From Gammaproteobacteria bacterium (lineage in GTDB: Bacteria > Pseudomonadota > Gammaproteobacteria > Nitrosococcales > Methylophagaceae): 33,259 bases of DNA. Below are positions 262 through 30,921 of this stretch, one piece after another (positions within the stretch are counted from its first letter, which is position 1; every line of letters starts with the position of its first letter). The translations under genes were made by a program, and so were the position numbers. Under the pieces are notes generated by a model that saw nothing but the letters and a program-made list of their open reading frames with translations, was not told the DNA's origin and searched no databases. The stretch is taken from positions 1 to 33,259 of the forward strand of contig QNEY01000002.1 in the NCBI GenBank assembly GCA_003645385.1, read 5' to 3'.

Positions 262-732
262 ATGGAACGAGAACTTGAACTATTGAAAGAGATGTGTGAT
301 GATTATGGTGCAGCTTGCAATCAATGTGGTTGCTATAATGAATCCGGAGAATGTTATTGCGAAATAGGGTTTGATAATTTCTCCCCTGACAAAATCAGGC
401 AGGCGATTAAAGAATGGCAAAAGAGCAAAGAGTATAAAGTGTCATTTGAGCTGATTAGCGTTGACTTTGAGAAGAAAGAATCTGTTTTTAGAGTGAAAGA
501 AGAGAATGGTGAGCAGGCGTGTGCATATGTTGTTGGTAATTCTTTCGACAGCTCATTGATTGATGATGTTTTTACTATAGATTTTGGGTGGCAGCACTAC
601 CGAGCAAACAATGAAGAAGCAACGGGGTTTACTGACGCTTGCAAGCTCTTCGCAATCGCACTTGCTAAGTTCATCAAGACCACTCCGATATATGACAGTC
701 ACATAAAGAATTATGGTAATGACAATGGATAG
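262..732 (+). CDS. Hypothetical protein with Cys-rich N-terminus (CNQCGCYNESGECYC)
   Basis: ATG 262 follows 'aaggaggattaga' (SD); start refined from 232 in the ORF track. Confidence 0.8.
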   Translation: MERELELLKEMCDDYGAACNQCGCYNESGECYCEIGFDNFSPDKIRQAIKEWQKSKEYKVSFELISVDFEKKESVFRVKEENGEQACAYVVGNSFDSSLIDDVFTIDFGWQHYRANNEEATGFTDACKLFAIALAKFIKTTPIYDSHIKNYGNDNG

Positions 733-3253
733 TATCAATATCAGCTATGGACTTAATGTGCTAAAACCAGCCGTTAAAACTGTAACGCTGGAACAGGTCA
801 TCAAGACTATACGCACTAACAAAACTCTGGCAGCCAAGATTAAGGCTGTCAGGGATGCACCTGACAAGAAAACAAAGTCAGAAAAGAAGAAGCTGTTACC
901 GTTCTTTTCAGGGGCAACATTCAAAAAGGATTACTGTAATAATGCGAATTTTGAACACATCACAGTGATTGTATTTGACTTTGATGATCTTGGCTCTGAG
1001 TTATCGTCGACCTTTGACCAACTCATTAAATTACCCTTTATTTTGGCTGTTTTCGTCTCTCCAAGTGGGGATGGCCTGAAGGTCATCTGTAGGTTGCCCA
1101 AGCTGGTCAAATCGGCTGAGGTATATTTACAATATTGGCATGAGTACTCATCTTTTTTCCGTGATCAGTACAAGCTTGAGAATGATCGAGGCACTAAGGA
1201 TGTCAGGCGGATATGCTACTTGTCAGCTGATCCAGATGCTTATTACAACCCTGCAGCAAAAGCAATGTACTCGTTTGATCCGGCAAAAGCAAGAGACTTT
1301 GACCGACCGGGCAAGTTACTTGCTGACTCTAACAAGCAGGCACAGATTGAGTATGACGGTGATGCGAGCGACTCAGATCTATTGTCAGCCGCTAAACATC
1401 TATCAAATCGATCGTGGGAATATAGTGATTGGGTTAAAGCTGGCATGGCTCTTGCTTCATTGGGTGCATCTGGTCTAAATTACTTTCTGGCAATGTCGGA
1501 CAATGCTAATTATGATGACTCTCAGCAATCCTTAGTTGATACGTTCAACGGATTTTTAAAGACTAAAAACGGATCTGTGCATATTAGTACATTCTTCCAT
1601 TTTGCGATTAACACAGGCTGGGATCGACCAAAAGCAAATTTTCCAGCAGCCGATGCTTTAGCAAAATCGAAATCTATTGAGAGAAAGAAAACTAAGGTAT
1701 CGGCTGATCCCATCAAATTTTGGACTTATGACAGCAAGAAAAATATCGTAATCAACCAGTCAACTATTACTGCATTCTTGGAGCATTTTGGATTTCGGAA
1801 ACTATTTGTCAATGAGCTGGTGTTCAGCTTTGTGCAGGTGCAGAATAAGATAGTCAGACAGGTTACACCAGTATTGATCAAGGATTTTGTCCTTGACTGG
1901 TTGGATGATCAGGATGCGATACTTGATGAGCTGAAAGCAATGCGAGACGGTGAGCCTGTGACCATTAATATCTGGAACACAGCAGTCAAAGATGTTTTGC
2001 TTGCAAAAGCGGGCTTATTCCGAGAGGACAAGCTTGAGTTCTTGAGGACGGAGGATATTAAGTTTGTCAAGGACTCCAAGCATAAGGCGTTCATTTTCTT
2101 CAAAAATCGATTTGTCGAGATCACCAAAACCGGATCAAAGATCAAGGATTATAAAGATTTGAAAGGCTGTGTCTGGGCGAGCAGAGTTGAGGATCGTAAT
2201 ATCACAGCAGATGCAGGCAACAGCGGGGATTTTGAACAGTTTTGTGTTAATGTAGCTAGTGGCGGCAATGCAACCAAAAGACTTGAGTCATTACGCTCAA
2301 TGGCTGGATATTTACTTCATAAGTACAAAGATCCCACAGATGCAAGAGCTGTTATTTTTATTGATGCAGCGATTAGCGACATGGGGCAAGCAAGCGGAGG
2401 CACTGGCAAGTCATTATTCTGCGAAGCACTGGGCAAGATGGTGTCAACTCACAGTCAGGACGCTAGAAACTTCAAATTCGGTAATCAATTTGGGTTCCAG
2501 AACGTACAGCCTGGGTTAGGATTATTCATTTTTAATGACGCAAATCCGACTTTTCCGTTTGGTAAGATGTTCAGCATGATCACAGATGGCATGATGACTG
2601 AGAAGAAGAATAAAGACGCTGTAGTTCTCTCTTTTGATTTATCACCTAAATTCATGATCACAACTAACTACATCATAGGTGGCATTGATGCAAGCTCTCA
2701 GAGACGACAGGCAATTTTTGAGTTTGCTGATTTTTATAGTGTTGAGCATAGACCGATTGATGAGTTTGGTAAAGCTTTCTTTAATGATTGGGATGCTGAT
2801 GACTGGAACTCGTTTGACTGGTTTATGATCAGCTGCATCCAATATTATCTGGCTAATGGTATTATTGATGCAGGTGTTGTAAATCTGCGATACAAAAAGC
2901 TACGAGCTGAGATCGGATCAAGCTTTGCTGATTGGATATTGGATCAATGGCGATTGGCAATGATCGACATGGCTGATGCAGGATTTGCCCGGATAGGCGG
3001 CAAGCTGAAGGATATGAAATTGAGCTACATCGAGACGTTCGGCGAAGCTAAGAAAGCTACGCCAAATTATATGAACACAATATTGAAGCGATTTGCCAAA
3101 ATTTATGGGCTTGAGTATGTTGATGTCAGGACAGGCACACACCGAGAGTTTTATGTGTCTGGCACAATACAAGACGAATCATTCATAATGTCACTTGGTG
3201 AGACCAAAACAGGTGAAGTGGCTAATAATAACCAAGAACAAATCCCGTTCTAA
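713..3253 (+). CDS. Replication protein: BT4734/VirE-N-like primase domain, PriCT_2-like linker and P-loop (SF3-like) helicase domain
   Basis: IVFDFDDLG...VSPSGDGLKVIC...DVRRICYLSADPDAYYNP (BT4734/VirE N-like); LSNRSWEYSDWVKAGMALASLG (PriCT_2-like); Walker A GQASGGTGKS; FIFNDANP...FMITTNY...RRQAIFEF. True start could be 713, 719 or 725. Confidence 0.87.
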   Translation: MVMTMDSINISYGLNVLKPAVKTVTLEQVIKTIRTNKTLAAKIKAVRDAPDKKTKSEKKKLLPFFSGATFKKDYCNNANFEHITVIVFDFDDLGSELSSTFDQLIKLPFILAVFVSPSGDGLKVICRLPKLVKSAEVYLQYWHEYSSFFRDQYKLENDRGTKDVRRICYLSADPDAYYNPAAKAMYSFDPAKARDFDRPGKLLADSNKQAQIEYDGDASDSDLLSAAKHLSNRSWEYSDWVKAGMALASLGASGLNYFLAMSDNANYDDSQQSLVDTFNGFLKTKNGSVHISTFFHFAINTGWDRPKANFPAADALAKSKSIERKKTKVSADPIKFWTYDSKKNIVINQSTITAFLEHFGFRKLFVNELVFSFVQVQNKIVRQVTPVLIKDFVLDWLDDQDAILDELKAMRDGEPVTINIWNTAVKDVLLAKAGLFREDKLEFLRTEDIKFVKDSKHKAFIFFKNRFVEITKTGSKIKDYKDLKGCVWASRVEDRNITADAGNSGDFEQFCVNVASGGNATKRLESLRSMAGYLLHKYKDPTDARAVIFIDAAISDMGQASGGTGKSLFCEALGKMVSTHSQDARNFKFGNQFGFQNVQPGLGLFIFNDANPTFPFGKMFSMITDGMMTEKKNKDAVVLSFDLSPKFMITTNYIIGGIDASSQRRQAIFEFADFYSVEHRPIDEFGKAFFNDWDADDWNSFDWFMISCIQYYLANGIIDAGVVNLRYKKLRAEIGSSFADWILDQWRLAMIDMADAGFARIGGKLKDMKLSYIETFGEAKKATPNYMNTILKRFAKIYGLEYVDVRTGTHREFYVSGTIQDESFIMSLGETKTGEVANNNQEQIPF

Positions 3254-4295: not shown

Positions 4296-4802
4296 CTAAC
4301 CTACACAATGGCGATTGCCTTGAAGTGATGAAGGGATTTGAGGACAACTAGTGGCACTTACAATACAGATAAGGGATTGGGCGATAATGCAAACGGGGTA
4401 GGTAGCGGAGTAAAGAAGCATATATCTAATGACCAACAAGGCAGATTCCCCGCCAATATAATACTCGATAATGAAGCAGCGAAATTGCTGGATGAACAGA
4501 CTAACGACAATGTGTCGAGGTTCTTCTATGTGGCTAAGCCTAGTAAGGCGGGGCGGAATAATGGGGTTGAGGATAGTAAGGCGGATGACCCATATAAAAT
4601 CAGGAAGCAAAACAACAAAAAGAATTTTCATCCGACTGTCAAGCCGGTAACGCTTATGAAGTACTTATGCCAGATGACACAAACGCCCACAAAAGGCAAT
4701 GTACTTGATCCGTTTATGGGGATTGAGAGGAATGAGGACTATTTCAACCTTGCAAAGACAAGGATCGAGAACGCTAATTTGCAGACTGAGCTGACGCTGT
4801 AG
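4292..4802 (+). pseudogene. Decayed DNA adenine-methyltransferase (first of two)
   Basis: N-term MTNLHNGDCLEVMKGFEDN* (4292-4351), then in another frame ...GRFPANIILDNEAAKLLDEQTNDNVSRFFYVAKPSKAGRN...NFHPTVKPVTLMKYLCQMTQTPTKGNVLDPFMG-IERNEDYFNLAKTRI. The DPPY region and the SGTTG...FIG stretch are missing. Confidence 0.8.
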
Positions 4803-4811
4803 GAGGCGGAG

Positions 4812-5171
4812 ATGAAGATTGATAATGTATACAATGAAGATTGCATAACGACAATGAGCAGGATGCCTGATGGGTTTGTTGATCTGGTGGTTACTTCTCC
4901 ACCTTATGATAATATGCGGACATATAACCAGGACATTGATAAATCTTGGGGTGATCATGTTTGGAAGCCGATTATCAAGGAGTTATTCAGGGTAACTAAG
5001 CGTTGGGGTAAGATACAACTTATGGAAAATAGCAAATCTTTCCCAGCTAGGTGTTGAGGAGCAATTAAGAACAAAAGAAAATGGATTGGATCAGAATTAT
5101 CAAGCGAATATTGCGATATTATCAACAAGAGAATCGGTATTGTAATGAGCCAATTAATGATTGATTTTTAG
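4812..5171 (+). pseudogene. Decayed DNA methyltransferase (second of two)
   Basis: MKIDNVYNEDCITTMSRMPDGFVDLVVTSPPYDNMRTYN...KELFRVTKRWG, a TGA at 5055-5057, then in the same frame GAIKNKRKWIGSELSSEYCDIINKRIGIV...: an N-terminus plus a C-terminal tail with the middle deleted. Confidence 0.8.
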
Positions 5172-5744
5172 TGTGTAAAATCACCCGAATTTTGACCAGA
5201 TTATAGACGTGGAATTGAGTGTTGAATATTGGCTCAGAAATGGGCTGTTTTTAGGGGTTATTTGCCAATGACAATTTTAAAATCAAAATTGTCACAGATT
5301 GCAAAAAATTGTCATAAAATTGTCATTTTAGTTAGGTTGCTAATAGTACGGTTCCGAAGCAATGACAAATTTGCATCTTTTTATGACAAAAATGACAAAC
5401 CCACTTTTAAAATTGTCATAGGTCAAGTTGTTGCGGCACAGCATTATAAGAAAAGTGCAATGACAAATTTTATTTGCACTTAAAGCTATACAACACATAG
5501 AGTTAAAGCGAATCTATGACAAATATGACAGTTTTTTTACGTAAACGTAAGGGAATAAAAATATATGTATATATAGGGTAAATAGAGAGAATATGTATAA
5601 AAAGCCAATATATATATAAAACATAGCGAAAAACTGTCATTTCTGTCATAAACTGCCCTAAAACATTGACTACGACCAGCCGGAAGGCACTTTTCAAAAT
5701 TGTCACAAAATAATTTTTAGAGGATAAAAACAACAGGAGGATTA
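5172..5744. promoter_or_regulatory. Largest non-coding region; array of TGACA(A)/(T)TGTCA elements around an A/T-rich segment: candidate replication origin or operator array
   Basis: About 14 core elements read by eye between 5269 and 5705, including AAAATTGTCA at 5285, 5305, 5316, 5409 and 5696; TGACAATTTT at 5269; TGACAAATTT at 5363 and 5461; A/T-rich 5551-5625. Confidence 0.6.
5453..5481. repeat. Perfect 8-bp inverted repeat AAGTGCAA / TTGCACTT enclosing one TGACAAATTT element
   Basis: aagtgcaa-tgacaaattttat-ttgcactt read directly. Confidence 0.8.
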
Positions 5745-7103
5745 ATGGAGCAAATTAACATTGATTTTGAGGCTAAAAAACAGGCTATTTTTTGCATGCA
5801 AAAAGGCACCATAAAACTACGAGATTATCAGCAGAATATTTATGAGGAAGCGATTAACATTTTGAACAAATACGGTCTCGTTTATCTGGCACTTGAAACC
5901 AGGCTCGGCAAGACATTTATTGCAGCATTTCTGGCTGACAAATTTCTAAAGGATCAGAACCAGAGTTTTCTATTTGTCACGAAAAAGAAAGCGATCCCAA
6001 ACATAAAAGAGAATCTCGAGGATATGGGATTGGCTGCCAGATGCAAATTGATCAACTATGAGTCAGTTCACAAGGTCAAAGAGTTTTATCCTGTTATCAT
6101 TCTGGATGAGGCTCACAGGCTCGGGTCATTCCCGAAAAAGTGTAAAGCAGTCAAAGTGCTTGAGAGGATGACAAGGAACTCATTGATCATTTACCTGTCA
6201 GCTACACCAACACCGGAATCATTAAGCCAGATTTATCATCAATTGCAACTATCCTCACATTCACCGTTCACTCAATATGCTAACTTTTACAAATTTGCTC
6301 GCAAATACGTCGACGTGAAGCAAAAGAAGATAAAAAAGGGTTTATCTGTTAACGATTATTCAAATGCCCGAGAATCGCTTATTATGCCTTTGATTGCTCC
6401 GCTCACTATTAAGTACACTCAGGAGCAAGCAGGATTCCCATTCCCCGAGATTGATGAGCGGATCGAGTTTGTCAAGATGAATGATAATGTTAAGTTGTTG
6501 TCAAACATACTATTAAAGCATAGCTTCTATCAGAGTAAGTTACAGCCGGAGTATTTTATTGACATCGGCAGTGCAGCGGATATGCAAAATAAGATACACC
6601 AAATCAGCTCAGGCAGTGTAATTTTCAAAAATGACCAAGATGAGCCGGAGTATATGATTCTGGATGAGGCGAAAGGCAGGCGATGCAAGCAATTAATCAA
6701 GGGCAAGAAAACAGCTATATTCTACAAATTTATAGGCGAGAAAAACATCATAGAATCTACCTTAGATCAGTGTAACTTAACCAATGACCCGATTGAGTTT
6801 GAGTCTAATAAAAATTGCGTGTTTTACGGCCAAATACAAGCCGTTAAGGAAGGTATCAAGCTAAAGTCAGCAGAACAGATCATTTTCTTTAATATCTCGT
6901 TCTCTTGGACGGATTACGCTCAGGCAAAGAACCGACTACAGGACATGCACCGGGAGCATCCCCCTAAGCTGATCTGGTTATTCTCAGAGGATGGAATTGA
7001 GCAGAAGATATATAAGCGACTGATGAAGAAAAAAAGCTTTACAACAATACACTTCAGGGCAGACTATGACTACAAGTATGTAAAAAAACAGGAGCAACAA
7101 TGA
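5745..7103 (+). CDS. SF2 (SNF2/DEAH-type) DNA helicase
   Basis: KLRDYQQNIYEEAI; TRLGKTFIA (motif I); VIILDEAHRLGS (II); LIIYLSATPTP (III); SD 'caacaggaggattaATG'. Confidence 0.9.
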   Translation: MEQINIDFEAKKQAIFCMQKGTIKLRDYQQNIYEEAINILNKYGLVYLALETRLGKTFIAAFLADKFLKDQNQSFLFVTKKKAIPNIKENLEDMGLAARCKLINYESVHKVKEFYPVIILDEAHRLGSFPKKCKAVKVLERMTRNSLIIYLSATPTPESLSQIYHQLQLSSHSPFTQYANFYKFARKYVDVKQKKIKKGLSVNDYSNARESLIMPLIAPLTIKYTQEQAGFPFPEIDERIEFVKMNDNVKLLSNILLKHSFYQSKLQPEYFIDIGSAADMQNKIHQISSGSVIFKNDQDEPEYMILDEAKGRRCKQLIKGKKTAIFYKFIGEKNIIESTLDQCNLTNDPIEFESNKNCVFYGQIQAVKEGIKLKSAEQIIFFNISFSWTDYAQAKNRLQDMHREHPPKLIWLFSEDGIEQKIYKRLMKKKSFTTIHFRADYDYKYVKKQEQQ

Positions 7104-7456
7104 GCGAGCAAACAATACAATCAAGGATAATGAAGGATATCAATAGCCGGAAGGGTTGTCACGCTTTTAAGATTGTCAGTGCAAGTAAAGCAGGCTGTCC
7201 GGATATATTAGCCTGCATCAATGGTCACTTCATCGGGATGGAGATCAAGAAGCCTGGTGAGATTCCTACACCACAGCAGGCACACCGACTAACTCAGATT
7301 AGATCATCTGGCGGCGTCAGTGTCTGGTTTGATAGCTTTGACAGTTACTTTGACTGGATTGAACGGTTCATTCCTAGGGCACTATTTGAGGTGGATGATT
7401 CGTTCCGTGAGTTAGCACCGCCAACGGCAAAAATAATAGAGGAGTTGATGATATAG
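7100..7456 (+). CDS. VRR-NUC domain nuclease
   Basis: SRIMKDINSR...KIVSASKAGCPDILACINGHFIGMEIKKPGEIPTPQQAHRLTQIRSSGG: VRR-NUC pattern PD...E.K...Q..........GG. Confidence 0.9.
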   Translation: MSEQTIQSRIMKDINSRKGCHAFKIVSASKAGCPDILACINGHFIGMEIKKPGEIPTPQQAHRLTQIRSSGGVSVWFDSFDSYFDWIERFIPRALFEVDDSFRELAPPTAKIIEELMI

Positions 7457-7525: not shown

Positions 7526-8119
7526 ATGCTAATGCCTGCACACCTGCAAGCTGAGTTGATGGATCGCTTTAGTCTTACGGACAAACAGGTTTACGCTGTT
7601 TACTTGGGTGTGTTACATTATCCTATTCCTGCCGATTTCAAGTTGGCTTTACAGCTTGCAGGGTACAAAGACGATTCAAAGACCTTAACAAACACAGCTA
7701 ACCGATTAAATAAATGCAAAAAAATAATTGCACTGCGAAAATATCTCAAAGCGAAACGAAAGAGACGTGATGATGATATTGAGCTTACGGACGAGAAAGC
7801 ATTATTGACAAGCATCATCAAGCATGATCCAGCTGACCTGTTCAAGGTTGAGATGATTGACAAGTATAATGCAGGTGAGGTTGTAGGATCAAAGCCGGGA
7901 ATCAGGCAATTAGCTGTCACGGAGTTGCCGGAGAAGACAAGACTAGCTTTGAAGCATGTACGCTCACACACTGACAAATACGGTCAAGTACACTTTGAGT
8001 ACATCGCACATGATAAGATTGAAGCGATTAAAGCAAAGGCAGACATTAAGAACCCTAAGACGGAGAAGGATCAATTCGAGATAGTATTCGAGGAGCGGCG
8101 CAATGAAGAAGATCATTAA
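7526..8119 (+). CDS. terS: Terminase small subunit
   Basis: HTH-like N-terminus (LTDKQVYAVYLGVLH...ALQLAGYKDDSKTLTNTANRL), position directly upstream of TerL, typical KHDPADLF...VTELPEKTRLALKHVR. Confidence 0.8.
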   Translation: MLMPAHLQAELMDRFSLTDKQVYAVYLGVLHYPIPADFKLALQLAGYKDDSKTLTNTANRLNKCKKIIALRKYLKAKRKRRDDDIELTDEKALLTSIIKHDPADLFKVEMIDKYNAGEVVGSKPGIRQLAVTELPEKTRLALKHVRSHTDKYGQVHFEYIAHDKIEAIKAKADIKNPKTEKDQFEIVFEERRNEEDH

Positions 8120-9365
8120 GTTTGCTCCTGATTACTTTTTGCCACATCAGCAAGAGTTCCTTGATTCAGAGGCTAAGCAGAAGGCATTAGTCACCGGTTA
8201 TGGTGGCGGCAAGACGTTTGCGTTCATCTGGGAAACATTCATGAACCATCTATTCCTTGTCAATAAGGAAGGTCAATCAAACGGCTGGATAGTTTATCCT
8301 ACATTCAGCATGGCAGAAGAGCTGTTTGTTGAGCCGTTCTTAATGCTATTAGATAGATACGAGATAGATTACAAGTACAATTCAACAAAGCATCTGATAT
8401 CCTCTGAGTATGGTAAACTTAGACTGTATCAACTCCAGACTCCTCATCGGATGGTAGGTGCAGAGCTGACATTCTTAGGGTTTGATGAGTTTGACATTGG
8501 CAGTTACAAGAACTGTGACATAGCATACAAGAAGGGTGTTGGACGATTAAGAGGCAGCAATAAGACCAAGATGTACTTTGTCACTACACCAGAGGGATAT
8601 CATTACATACACAAGCTATTTGTTGAGGATAATGAGGAGGGCGAGCGGCACTTGATCAAAGCCAAGTCAACCGACAACCCTTACTTACCGGCTGACTACA
8701 TTGATGATCTCAGAAAGAACTATGACAGCAAGCTAGTAGAGCAGTACATGAACGGTGAGTTTGTCAATCTGCGAGGCTCTGCGGCTTACTACGAGTTTGA
8801 CAGAGAGCGACATTGTAAAGATTTTGGCATTCACAACGCTGAGAAGAAGCCACAGGTGTTATATATGGGGATGGACTTCAATGTTGATCCGATGTCAGCA
8901 GTTGTGGCAATCAAGCGAGATAATAAACTAATTATGTTTGATGAGATAATTTTGCGGAACAGTAACACCCGGCAGATGATCGATGTGATCAAAGAGCGGT
9001 ATCCGGGTGCATATATATCAATTGCACCTGACCAGACAGGCGGCAGCCGTAAGACATCGGCTGAGATTGGAGTAACGGACATCCATCTATTAAAGCAGGC
9101 AGGTTTCAAGATACTTGGCAGCGGCACAAACCCAAGTGTCAAGGATAGCTTGAACGCTGTCAATGCGGCTCTATATCAAGGTAGACTAGAGATTGACAAG
9201 CGATGCACTGCATTGACAAATGACTTTGAGAAGGTCGTGAGAGATGATGCAGGTGAGATTGACAAAAAAGATAGTAATCTTTCACATATTTCAGATGCAG
9301 GTAGATATTTAGTTTGGTCACAGTTCCCATTATACGGATCAGCAATAAGGACAAGAGGCAGATAA
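8103..9365 (+). CDS. terL: Terminase large subunit
   Basis: ATPase LVTGYGGGKTFAF, LTFLGFDEFD; nuclease YMGMDFNVDPMSAVVA...SIAPDQTGGSRKTS. Confidence 0.94.
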   Translation: MKKIIKFAPDYFLPHQQEFLDSEAKQKALVTGYGGGKTFAFIWETFMNHLFLVNKEGQSNGWIVYPTFSMAEELFVEPFLMLLDRYEIDYKYNSTKHLISSEYGKLRLYQLQTPHRMVGAELTFLGFDEFDIGSYKNCDIAYKKGVGRLRGSNKTKMYFVTTPEGYHYIHKLFVEDNEEGERHLIKAKSTDNPYLPADYIDDLRKNYDSKLVEQYMNGEFVNLRGSAAYYEFDRERHCKDFGIHNAEKKPQVLYMGMDFNVDPMSAVVAIKRDNKLIMFDEIILRNSNTRQMIDVIKERYPGAYISIAPDQTGGSRKTSAEIGVTDIHLLKQAGFKILGSGTNPSVKDSLNAVNAALYQGRLEIDKRCTALTNDFEKVVRDDAGEIDKKDSNLSHISDAGRYLVWSQFPLYGSAIRTRGR

Positions 9366-16851: not shown

Positions 16852-17289
16852 ATGGCAAAGGCGAAAAAAGTGAAACTAACGGAGAACACATCGGCAAAAT
16901 GGAAAAACTGTTTTATGTCAGACAATCCTGAATATATTACAGAGATATATGATGGAGAAACTCACATCGCAACTGTGAAAGGTCTATCATACTTGGATCG
17001 AGCGGCAATCAATAAAGCAGCTTTGAGCAACCAGAAGATGTATAACTTTAATGCAGATTCCGGAGAACTTGAACGAAATAAAGACGTTGATATGAATTTG
17101 GAAGCTATGCAACTAATGACAATCCATAAGGCATTAACCGGTCATCCGGATTGTTGGTTTATTGGTGGTGATGATGTATCTGTTAGAAAACTTGATAAGC
17201 TGGATCATGAGCTTATACAACTGCTCTATGTCAAAATTTCAGAGGCTAATAAAAAAGCTGAGAACATTGCAGGGCTTGAGCAAAACTAA
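16852..17289 (+). CDS. Tail assembly chaperone (G-like)
   Basis: Located between tail tube and tape measure; SD 'agggaggaaaaATG'. Confidence 0.6.
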   Translation: MAKAKKVKLTENTSAKWKNCFMSDNPEYITEIYDGETHIATVKGLSYLDRAAINKAALSNQKMYNFNADSGELERNKDVDMNLEAMQLMTIHKALTGHPDCWFIGGDDVSVRKLDKLDHELIQLLYVKISEANKKAENIAGLEQN

Positions 17290-27605: not shown

Positions 27606-28019
27606 ATGAAACCTAAGCGAAAACGTTACCGAAATAAAGGCAGATACCCAAGTGTATTCCATTATGATTTTAAAAATCAGATACTCAGGGAACTCGATGT
27701 GCCTTTGGAATCCCGATTATTACAGCAAGGCGATCAGTGTATTGTTGAGGTGGTCGAGGATGGCGTGAGAATGCAGAAGTTAGCGACATTTATTTTTTAC
27801 CAGATCAGGACAGACAGTAAATCAACTCAGATAATGGTGCGACTGTACATCAATAATAAACTAGTAAAGAAGCGACTGAGCATTCGCAGGTTGCTCATCC
27901 AAGGAGAAAAAACTTATGTCAAAACAATACTTGATGCCGGTAAAAGACTGGGGCAAAGTGAGATATTTCAGCAAGCAAGAAATTGCTTGCAAATGCGGTT
28001 GCCAGGCGGCGGATATTGA
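27606..28019 (+). CDS. Hypothetical basic protein
   Basis: 137-aa ORF starting 4 nt after the terminator T-tract, no visible SD; last about 104 nt overlap the M15 gene in another frame. Confidence 0.5.
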   Translation: MKPKRKRYRNKGRYPSVFHYDFKNQILRELDVPLESRLLQQGDQCIVEVVEDGVRMQKLATFIFYQIRTDSKSTQIMVRLYINNKLVKKRLSIRRLLIQGEKTYVKTILDAGKRLGQSEIFQQARNCLQMRLPGGGY

Positions 28020-28311
28020 TGCACGAGTAATGTATGTAGCTGATATTGTGCGAGCATATACAAGGTTGCCAATGGTGATAACATCTGGGGTGAGATGTGC
28101 GGCACACAACAAGGCAGTTGGTGGAGCTAAAGACTCAGCCCATGTACAAGGATTTGCATTAGATATCCAGGTTAATGATGCAGTGCACAGGCGACTAATC
28201 AGGCATGCTTTGTCATTGTTTGGCGATGTTATTGGTATTGGGCAAGGCGAAAACTTCATACATTTCGATATTGACACAAAAAAACCAAAAAGAGAATGGC
28301 TATATAAATAG
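27916..28311 (+). CDS. Peptidase M15 (D-Ala-D-Ala carboxypeptidase-type) endolysin
   Basis: YFSKQEIACKCGCQ...VITSGVRCAAHNKAVGGAKDSAHVQGFALDI...FIHFDID: M15A metal-binding motifs; SD 'aaggagaaaaactt'. Confidence 0.92.
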   Translation: MSKQYLMPVKDWGKVRYFSKQEIACKCGCQAADIDARVMYVADIVRAYTRLPMVITSGVRCAAHNKAVGGAKDSAHVQGFALDIQVNDAVHRRLIRHALSLFGDVIGIGQGENFIHFDIDTKKPKREWLYK

Positions 28312-28352
28312 CTACAACACAACAACATAACACAATTCTATAAAAATATAAT

Positions 28353-28838: not shown

Positions 28839-29256
28839 GAATGCTATCGACTCAGCTGTTGCAGATCCTTTCTTCTTTCTGATTTGCTCACTAGTAATAC
28901 TTGGATCGTTTGTGATTATATTATTGATCGAGATTATAAAACGGAAAAAGCGGGATGAAAAAGATGATAATTACATAACTCAGGCTGCTAGTATTGCTGG
29001 AAAAGATGTTAGCGTTACACCTTTATCAAAATGGTTTCACGTCATTGATTACCAGGGGTTTAAGATCTACATTTCTATAGTCGGCACAATTGACAGCATC
29101 CAGATATACAATAAATATAATCAAAAACTATTTGAGGTGTATGATCCGTATATGACTCTCAAATCAGCTCGTAAGCTGGCGATCAAATGGCTTGAGGGTG
29201 AGAACCTTGTAGTAAAAAAACGAAAAGGAAATAGAAATAAAAGGAGGAGAAAATGA
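28825..29256 (+). CDS. Membrane protein with one TM segment and a very basic C-terminus
   Basis: FFFLICSLVILGSFVIILLIEIIKRKK...KKRKGNRNKRRRK; SD 'ctggaggatgcaa'; start refined from 28798. Confidence 0.7.
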   Translation: MSKIKNAIDSAVADPFFFLICSLVILGSFVIILLIEIIKRKKRDEKDDNYITQAASIAGKDVSVTPLSKWFHVIDYQGFKIYISIVGTIDSIQIYNKYNQKLFEVYDPYMTLKSARKLAIKWLEGENLVVKKRKGNRNKRRRK

Positions 29257-29483
29257 ATCTTAGAGAACGTTACAGCTCTGTCAATGACCAGCTTGTACAG
29301 GATGGATTGGCAAAGCTGAAATTGAAAGAACTGGCTCAACTGTTAGGTACAGAGCCAAGTACACTGTCAAGCTATTTCCGACTTGAGCAGCAAGACAGTG
29401 ACAACGAGCAAAAACTACGTGAGGCATTACCCGGAATAACAGCCGCACGAAAAGCAAGTAAGATGGCACTGGAGTCAAAATGA
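29253..29483 (+). CDS. Small putative HTH protein
   Basis: LKLKELAQLLGTEPSTLSSYFRLEQ helix-turn-helix-like; SD 'aaaggaggagaaa'. Confidence 0.6.
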   Translation: MNLRERYSSVNDQLVQDGLAKLKLKELAQLLGTEPSTLSSYFRLEQQDSDNEQKLREALPGITAARKASKMALESK

Positions 29484-29788
29484 GCCATATTAATCAATTA
29501 AAGAAGATTGTGGACAAGTTTGTTGAGGATGCCAAAGAACAGCCGAGAACACCGATCATGAGCATTGCAAGGGCGATGGAGCGGCGATTGGCTGAGAGGA
29601 AGGCTGAGTATATGCAGTGGAAGAATGAATCTGTGTCTGCTCTATTTGCAGGGATAGAGAAAGAGTTAAGCAACGCAACAGGTGATGCCAGATTTTTAGC
29701 CAAAAAGGTAGTCAAACAGAAGGCTGTCAGGATAGCTAATTTTGCAATGATGATCTACAACAACGCAGGAAAGCAGGTGGGAAAATGA
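29480..29788 (+). CDS. Hypothetical protein
   Basis: 102 aa, ATGA overlaps on both sides. Confidence 0.65.
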   Translation: MSHINQLKKIVDKFVEDAKEQPRTPIMSIARAMERRLAERKAEYMQWKNESVSALFAGIEKELSNATGDARFLAKKVVKQKAVRIANFAMMIYNNAGKQVGK

Positions 29789-30921
29789 GTAAAATCAAAT
29801 GGGAAATGAACAAAACAGGACAGCCAACGCTCACAAGTGGTCAACATGTGTACACGGTCACTGAGTTTGCCGAAGGCAAAATAGAACTGCATTTGCACCT
29901 ATGGAATAAGCACATATTTACGACTGCTCATCCATCATTGGCAGCAGCTAAAATATCGGCAAAACGGGATCTAAAAAAGAGAGTAGAGCAAGCGGTTAAG
30001 CTTGAGGACATCCCTGAGCTGAACGAGATCTACGAAGCGGAGATTGCTAAAGAAATTGACATTCCGCAAATGCCAATGGAGACAGCAAAAACAAATTCTG
30101 AAAGGCAAGCAAGAACAGCTGTGTATCGCTGTGATAATATCAAAAATGGTAGATGGTATGTGGTCAAGGATGTTGAGACTGGTGAGGTGCATCATGAGTC
30201 AAAACCATCTGTCACTACTATATTATCTGCTGTGATGCCGACTCCTCCGCAATTGGTCAACTGGCAAGTAAAACAAGGATGGAATGAGGAACAAAACAAA
30301 GCCGAGTACCGGAACTATATGAACGAGCGGGCTGAGGTGGGCACTGCTGTACATGTTGCGATTGATCGTTTTTTAGCAGATGGGACAATTGATCTGGACG
30401 CCGAGCCTCATTATTTTGATGCCGAGAAAAAGAAAATGTTCTTGGGATTTATTGGTTTTATGTTTGTGCATAAGCCTCAATCTATCCAGTCGGAATTGAC
30501 AATGTTACATCCGGATCTGCCTTTTGCCGGTACCGCTGATATGATAGCTGAGATTGATGATGAGCTATGGCTGATCGACTATAAGACCGGAGCCGAGAAC
30601 CCTGTACAGCACACAATCCAACTTAATATGTACAAGATGCTCTACGAGGCTATGACAGGGCAAGAGATCAAGCACATTGCCTGCTTATATATTAATGGCA
30701 AAAATAAAGGTCATTGGAAGAGCAAGACCAAAAAACAATCTGCTCAGTACAGACTAAAAGAGTATGAGTTTTTACCAAGACGGCAAGTCTTACAAACTGT
30801 GAAGATGTATAATTATTTGACCACAGGCGACTATGACAAGTCACCTGAGCCAATCCCAAGAGAAACAATCTACAACCTTGACGATGCCCGATCCGGTGCA
30901 TACGTTGACAACAGAGTATAG
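29785..30921 (+). CDS. PD-(D/E)XK nuclease (RecB/Cas4-like exonuclease)
   Basis: EVGTAVHVAIDRFL...SELTML...FAGTADMIAEIDDELWLIDYKTG...HTIQLNMYKML: GxxxH, GxxD, DYKTG, QLxxY. Confidence 0.87.
   Translation: MSKIKWEMNKTGQPTLTSGQHVYTVTEFAEGKIELHLHLWNKHIFTTAHPSLAAAKISAKRDLKKRVEQAVKLEDIPELNEIYEAEIAKEIDIPQMPMETAKTNSERQARTAVYRCDNIKNGRWYVVKDVETGEVHHESKPSVTTILSAVMPTPPQLVNWQVKQGWNEEQNKAEYRNYMNERAEVGTAVHVAIDRFLADGTIDLDAEPHYFDAEKKKMFLGFIGFMFVHKPQSIQSELTMLHPDLPFAGTADMIAEIDDELWLIDYKTGAENPVQHTIQLNMYKMLYEAMTGQEIKHIACLYINGKNKGHWKSKTKKQSAQYRLKEYEFLPRRQVLQTVKMYNYLTTGDYDKSPEPIPRETIYNLDDARSGAYVDNRV

Follow-up and report, generated by a model that had tools for sequence, protein, structure and literature searches.

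A probable SaPI/D5-type iteron origin in the complete genome of an uncultured phage encoding a PrimPol-SF3 primase-helicase

In the present study, the whole contig of 33,259 nucleotides (hereafter the window) was analysed. Its ends overlap by 123 bp, so the contig is circular and represents a complete phage genome, with a unique length of 33,136 bp. Circularity was confirmed by a pentapeptide-repeat gene (A(D/N)LR repeats) that runs across the contig ends (32605-33259 joined to 1-260). The sequence is identical to IMGVR_UViG_3300014914_000002, and the contig has been binned into a bacterial MAG as contig C2. No close relatives at the DNA level were found in the phage collection searched. All long ORFs assigned to a known family (primase, helicase, endonuclease, terminase and exonuclease) are encoded on the + strand. 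The primase gene is followed by small ORFs, two methyltransferase ORFs (4338-5057), a non-coding array of short repeats, the SF2 helicase and endonuclease genes, a small ORF (7526-8119) and the terminase gene (8103-9365); the features that concern us are collected in Table 1. Both methyltransferase ORFs resemble decayed remnants. In that at 4338-4802 the motif DPFMG is fused directly to IERNEDYF, and that at 4812-5057 carries the motif TSPPY and ends at 5057; past the stop, the same frame encodes a methyltransferase-like tail, RKWIGSELSSEYCDIINKRI.

Table 1. Coordinates of the array and of the replication genes in the window
Feature	Position	Strand	Basis
PrimPol-SF3 primase-helicase (BT4734-like_N, PriCT_2, DUF5906), proposed initiator	713..3253	+	domain search, structure model
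DUF5906 SF3 helicase domain, aa 561-665, GGTGKS Walker A	2393..2707	+	domain search
Predicted C-terminal winged helix, aa ~736-818, proposed iteron-binding part	2918..3166	+	structure model
Iteron array, 14 elements wATGACA(A/g)wTTT, both orientations	5265..5705	.	motif counts, alignment
Elements of the array, + strand	5269, 5363, 5384, 5393, 5461, 5517, 5526	+	
Elements of the array, - strand	5290, 5310, 5321, 5414, 5635, 5644, 5701	-	
Third iteron pair, TATGACAAAAATGACA	5382..5397	+	pair count, complementarity analysis
Left arm, two iterons 9 bp apart, TATGACAAATATGACAGTTTTT	5515..5536	+	91% complementary to 5629-5650; geometry scan
A/T-rich core, candidate DNA unwinding element, iteron-free, holds palindrome TTTACGTAAA (5536-5545)	5531..5634	.	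A/T profile
Right arm, inverted iteron pair 9 bp apart	5629..5650	-	complementarity, geometry scan
SF2 helicase	5745..7103	+	30% identity to NrS-1 phage helicase; start 40 bp past last iteron
Small endonuclease, phrog_93	7100..7456	+	39% identity to NrS-1 endonuclease
PD-(D/E)XK exonuclease, replication/recombination module	29785..30921	+	family match

An earlier note on this DNA had described about 14 TGACA-core elements at 5172-5744, and all of them are present; the positions it listed were also correct, except that the reverse pair starts one base later, at 5635/5644 and not at 5634/5643. The 14 copies of TGACA/TGTCA are above every one of 2000 dinucleotide shuffles of the region (mean 1.41, sd 1.14, maximum 6). 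The enrichment against the rest of the genome that the note had proposed to check was likewise found: this is the densest 573-bp stretch of the contig, and the runner-up, within coding sequence near 10.3-10.9 kb, has 10 copies. The pentamer itself is twofold enriched genome-wide (201 copies vs 106 expected), but the longer and paired forms are concentrated here. The region holds 12 copies of ATGACA, six of the seven contig copies of AAAATTGTCA and all three copies of TGACA-N4-TGACA (expected 0.001); the last are the three pairs of 9-bp period that had been claimed, and they are the sole such pairs in the genome. The aligned elements gave a consensus of about wATGACA(A/g)wTTT, which is longer than TGACA.

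The arrangement of these elements was also recovered by a motif-free scan, in which all 5-mers were searched for two copies 8-12 bp apart, a gap of 65-130 bp and two inverted copies 8-12 bp apart. The best match in the contig was TGACA at 5517/5526/5635/5644, with 14 copies vs 0-10 in 20 shuffles. The forward and the reverse pair form 22-nt arms, 91% complementary and 92 bp apart, and the geometry of the Sfi21, NrS-1 and S1 phages (two inverted iteron pairs of 8-12 bp spacing, 65-130 bp apart) is hence present in the window. A stem-loop of the pRN1 type has about 100 bp and a long continuous stem; in the window, stem-loop and iteron pairs are indistinguishable because the 22-nt arms are themselves the iteron pairs. 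The A/T-rich segment that had been placed at about 5551-5625 is real (80% A/T over 75 bp) and is second in the genome to 28286-28341, and the palindrome was found as described. That stretch, the richest of all in A/T over 75 bp, adjoins the end of ORF 27916-28311. The detrended cumulative GC skew peaks at 5264, the edge of the array, a suggestive position, yet the range of this curve does not reach significance (p ~0.10) and the contig has no sharp switch anywhere; the skew argument for an origin is uninformative. A DnaA-dependent origin was rejected, since the region contains no cluster of DnaA boxes and a single box-like match at 5172.

The primase-helicase was examined as the proposed initiator. 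Its AlphaFold2 model (mean pLDDT 69) matches the folds of AsfvPrimPol, MPXV E5, the SaPI5 primase-helicase (7ola, TM 0.58 by target) and the C-terminal region of the NrS-1 protein (6lrb); a sequence search of solved structures gave no match. Residues 736-818 are modelled in the order H-E-H-H-E-E, which is that of a winged helix, and the last 170 residues, modelled on their own, show this order again (pLDDT 84-89 in the domain core). When this C-terminal model alone was compared with PDB folds, nothing significant was obtained, and the weak top matches were largely winged-helix proteins, including ORC. Two proteins had been suggested for a gel-shift assay (EMSA) with the array. The primase is favoured by its match to SF3 primase-helicases, SaPI5 Rep and NrS-1 among them, and by its predicted terminal winged helix, and the small protein encoded at 29253-29483 matches no protein family. 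The primase-SF3 helicase is most likely the protein that binds the iterons. Furthermore, the window has several features of the SaPI/D5 type, namely multiple short non-coding iterons, iterons flanking an A/T-rich segment and an encoded SF3 (D5/DUF5906) helicase. The array lies 2.0 kb downstream of the primase gene and not directly after it, as the SaPI type has it.

Recurrence of the array was examined by scanning IMG/VR for TGACA-N4-TGACA and an inverted pair, 90-120 bp apart, which gave 82 stretches, and 80 loci were analysed. The array is non-coding in 64 of the 80 (median 13.9 elements per kb vs 1.8 in the remaining locus), and in 41 of these 64 an ORF of at least 200 aa has its 3' end facing the array within 400 bp. 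Both the pentamer and the 9-bp period are specific, because the controls gave few stretches: 19 for the permuted pentamer TCAGA-N4 (6 of them non-coding) and 5 for TGACA-N5 with 10-bp spacing. A Pfam scan of 54 proteins (the window primase and the ORFs flanking viral arrays) found DUF5906 (22), VapE-like (18), D5_N (11), Pox_D5 (11), Toprim (10) and AAA_25 (10) domains. The neighbours surveyed are mostly primase-helicases of the SF3 type (DUF5906/VapE/D5) or of the Toprim type. In addition, SF2/SNF2 helicases of the window's type and small nucleases recur beside viral arrays, at nine loci each with the window's own included.

Homologues of the window primase (IMG/VR, 27-31% identity) were scanned for the same geometry with no motif named. 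Loci L159 and L166 carry 11 copies of TATGACGA, which surround an A/T-rich core and lie 6 kb upstream of the primase; in L159 an SF2 helicase resembling that at 5745 follows just after the primase. Arrays of CGGCACA (L103) and GGACGT (L097) lie shortly upstream of the primase, so that placement relative to this gene varies among the homologues, and L120 and L122 hold a weaker candidate. Most of the 79 primase relatives showed no array above noise in the scanned stretches; the array is therefore not universal in this primase family, or it lies outside the stretch fetched. Conservation in relatives, which had been named as a check, was accordingly found in part, as diverged arrays of the same form in some homologues, and the idea that every close primase homologue comes with a TGACA array was rejected. 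The same form with a different word is the pattern that would be expected if initiator and iteron co-evolve. A near-identical contig (sample 3300014913), whose assembly begins inside the array, has 4 differences in 14 kb. One of them, G5636A, turns the iteron at 5635 from TGTCA into TATCA (locus L002, position 334), so not every iteron copy is essential. Apart from this contig, relatives of the helicase and terminase in viral contigs were distant and had no array.

Look-alike arrays were also found in bacterial genomes. The scan gave 119 loci. The same primase cluster is present at 22 of them, and at 21 of these the array lies on the 3' side of the gene. The other 97 have no neighbour of the viral primase cluster, and many of them sit near metabolic genes on Bacteroidales chromosomes. 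Inverted TGACA-N4 arrays stand between such genes at L213, L247, L266 and other loci, and they may be a separate chromosomal element. Since look-alikes occur in these chromosomes, geometry alone does not prove an origin and context is needed. The host chromosome yielded no inverted array, the pattern was found in only 1 of 58 other genomes related to the host MAG, and TGACA pairs in the host outside the phage contig were not in excess (12 vs 9 for the reversed control pattern).

Taken together, we consider it probable that 5265-5705 is the phage replication origin, of the SaPI/D5 iteron class, and that it is acted on by the primase-SF3 helicase. The earlier note's reading of the region as a candidate origin is strengthened by three lines of evidence: the array shares its geometry with the annotated Sfi21 origin and with the primase-side arrays of NrS-1 and S1, viral look-alike arrays mostly adjoin primase-helicase genes, and arrays of like form but diverged sequence accompany some homologues of the window primase. 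In the mechanism that we propose, the primase-helicase would bind the ATGACA iterons through its C-terminal winged helix, and complexes would assemble on the inverted pairs 5517/5526 and 5635/5644 across the A/T-rich core. These complexes may then melt the core, load as ring helicases and prime DNA synthesis, presumably assisted by the NrS-1-like SF2 helicase encoded just downstream.

The region could also be an origin at which a different protein, of the phage or of the host, binds the iterons and the primase-helicase is recruited only afterwards. The distance of 2 kb between the primase gene and the array, the absence of an array from most close primase homologues and the company of viral TGACA arrays with unrelated primase types, including Toprim-AAA_25, would all agree with such a separate initiator. 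We nevertheless regard it as unlikely, as no gene of this kind adjoins the array (the small protein at 29253-29483 has no family), a host initiator finds no excess of TGACA pairs in the host chromosome, diverged arrays accompany some homologues of the window primase, and SaPI Rep and Cch2 each bind the iterons of their own element (PMC7581432). The operator array that the earlier note had offered as its other reading found little support and is much weaker than an origin. Here a phage regulator would bind the elements and control transcription of the helicase operon from 5745, and the array does lie directly upstream of the helicase gene. We know of no phage operator that resembles this array, in which 14 copies span 440 bp and enclose an A/T-rich core; arrays in other viruses are mostly at the 3' end of primase genes, and the region gave no promoter of the type searched, that of Bacteroidota. 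Such a regulatory role is therefore very improbable. The least probable explanation, to which we give hardly any weight, is an intergenic repeat of the Bacteroidales chromosomal type, acquired by the phage and unconnected with replication. It draws on the majority of genome-collection matches that have no viral primase cluster beside them, many of them near Bacteroidales metabolic genes, but the host MAG and its relatives are practically free of the pattern, the Bacteroidales elements may not share the iteron flanks of the window, and the matches that do carry the primase cluster have the array 3' of the gene with one exception.

With the primase-associated origin as the preferred reading, the complete genome of an uncultured phage gains a candidate origin that can be tested, together with a named protein as its candidate initiator. 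Origins in other SF3-primase phages, where the iteron sequence is not conserved, could be located with the geometry scan. Tentatively, and with rather more doubt than confidence, we suggest that PrimPol/Toprim-SF3 phages share one origin design that is undescribed as a class: two inverted pentamer pairs (8-12 bp), separated by about 75-110 bp, that enclose an A/T-rich core and are accompanied by scattered extra copies. The pentamer would change fast and the geometry would be kept, and TGACA with 9-bp spacing would be a recurrent version.

For comparison, origin regions of named phages were picked by protein homology or annotated origin, not by array presence. In the Streptococcus thermophilus phage Sfi21 (NC_000872 34487-34784, 298 bp), the motif-blind scan found 11 copies of GTAAC with inverted 8-bp pairs and a 76-bp gap, and this array coincides with the annotation 'origin of replication, 302 bp non-coding region, phage inhibitory sequence'. 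Pentamers in both orientations and inverted pairs flanking an A/T-rich core are common to Sfi21 and the window, whereas the pentamer is GTAAC and not TGACA, the array is directly 3' of the primase, and the primase is unlike that of the window (E = 0.009 only). In Stenotrophomonas phage S1 the same scan found 12 copies of CCGCAC beside the primase, in 9-bp pairs with a 90-bp gap. Arrays in both orientations that lack the strict pair geometry are present in Idiomarinaceae phage 1N2-2, Alteromonas phage PB15 and Salicola phage CGphi29, and no array was found 3' of the primase in Mano, FoX1, MW202828 and Leef_1.

The Nitratiruptor phage NrS-1 has 15 copies of AAGTG (AAGTG/GTGTA iterons) in an array that starts about 15 bases past the stop codon of the primase-polymerase, and its inverted pairs are separated by 91 bp. 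It shares with the window inverted pairs around an A/T-rich core, a homologous SF2 helicase and endonuclease, and an SF3-type C-terminal region with the 6lrb fold match; it differs in its iteron, AAGTGTAAC, in an array directly 3' of the primase and in primase sequences barely similar to that of the window. The octamer TTTGGTTA, reported as the site that the NrS-1 polymerase recognises when it initiates de novo (PMC8718748), lies inside the array, on the minus strand at 17198, and this is its only copy in the first 20.5 kb of the genome. The array with this site is annotated as the hypothetical gene NRS1_29 (AB746912 17052-17456), whose translation is low-complexity, and this ORF is probably spurious and not a protein. 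This suggests that the biochemically studied start sequence sits within a paired-iteron array entered as a gene in the record.

pRN1 and Bordetella phage BIP-1 have origins near the gene of the replication protein, described as large stem-loops, with a stem of 21 nt in pRN1 (PMC4234260). They resemble the window in a PrimPol-SF3-winged-helix replication protein, the winged helix being a prediction in the window, with an origin close to its gene, and their stem-loop origins differ from its iterons. The proposed stem-loop origin of BIP-1 was also considered as a TGACA array and rejected, as BIP-1 has none. The ori and crr of P4 carry iterons, and the P4 alpha protein differs from the window primase in its Toprim primase. 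It unites primase, SF3 helicase and C-terminal winged-helix binding of the iterons or origin in one protein (PMC4234260), a combination like that proposed for the window primase. The C-terminal domain of SaPI Rep recognises origin iterons directly downstream of the rep gene, and in SCCmec Cch2, of the D5 type, residues 400-538 bind the putative origin and helicase activity needs the 5-nt AAGTG iteron (PMC7581432). In the window, the iterons do not abut the initiator gene as in SaPI but lie 2 kb off, next to the SF2 helicase gene, and their sequence is unlike. Short iterons with a 5-nt core and a D5/SF3-type helicase, in the window the proposed initiator, are common to SaPI Rep, Cch2 and the phage described here, the predicted winged helix of which may correspond to their C-terminal DNA-binding domain, and it is well supported that the array works like a SaPI/D5-type iteron origin.
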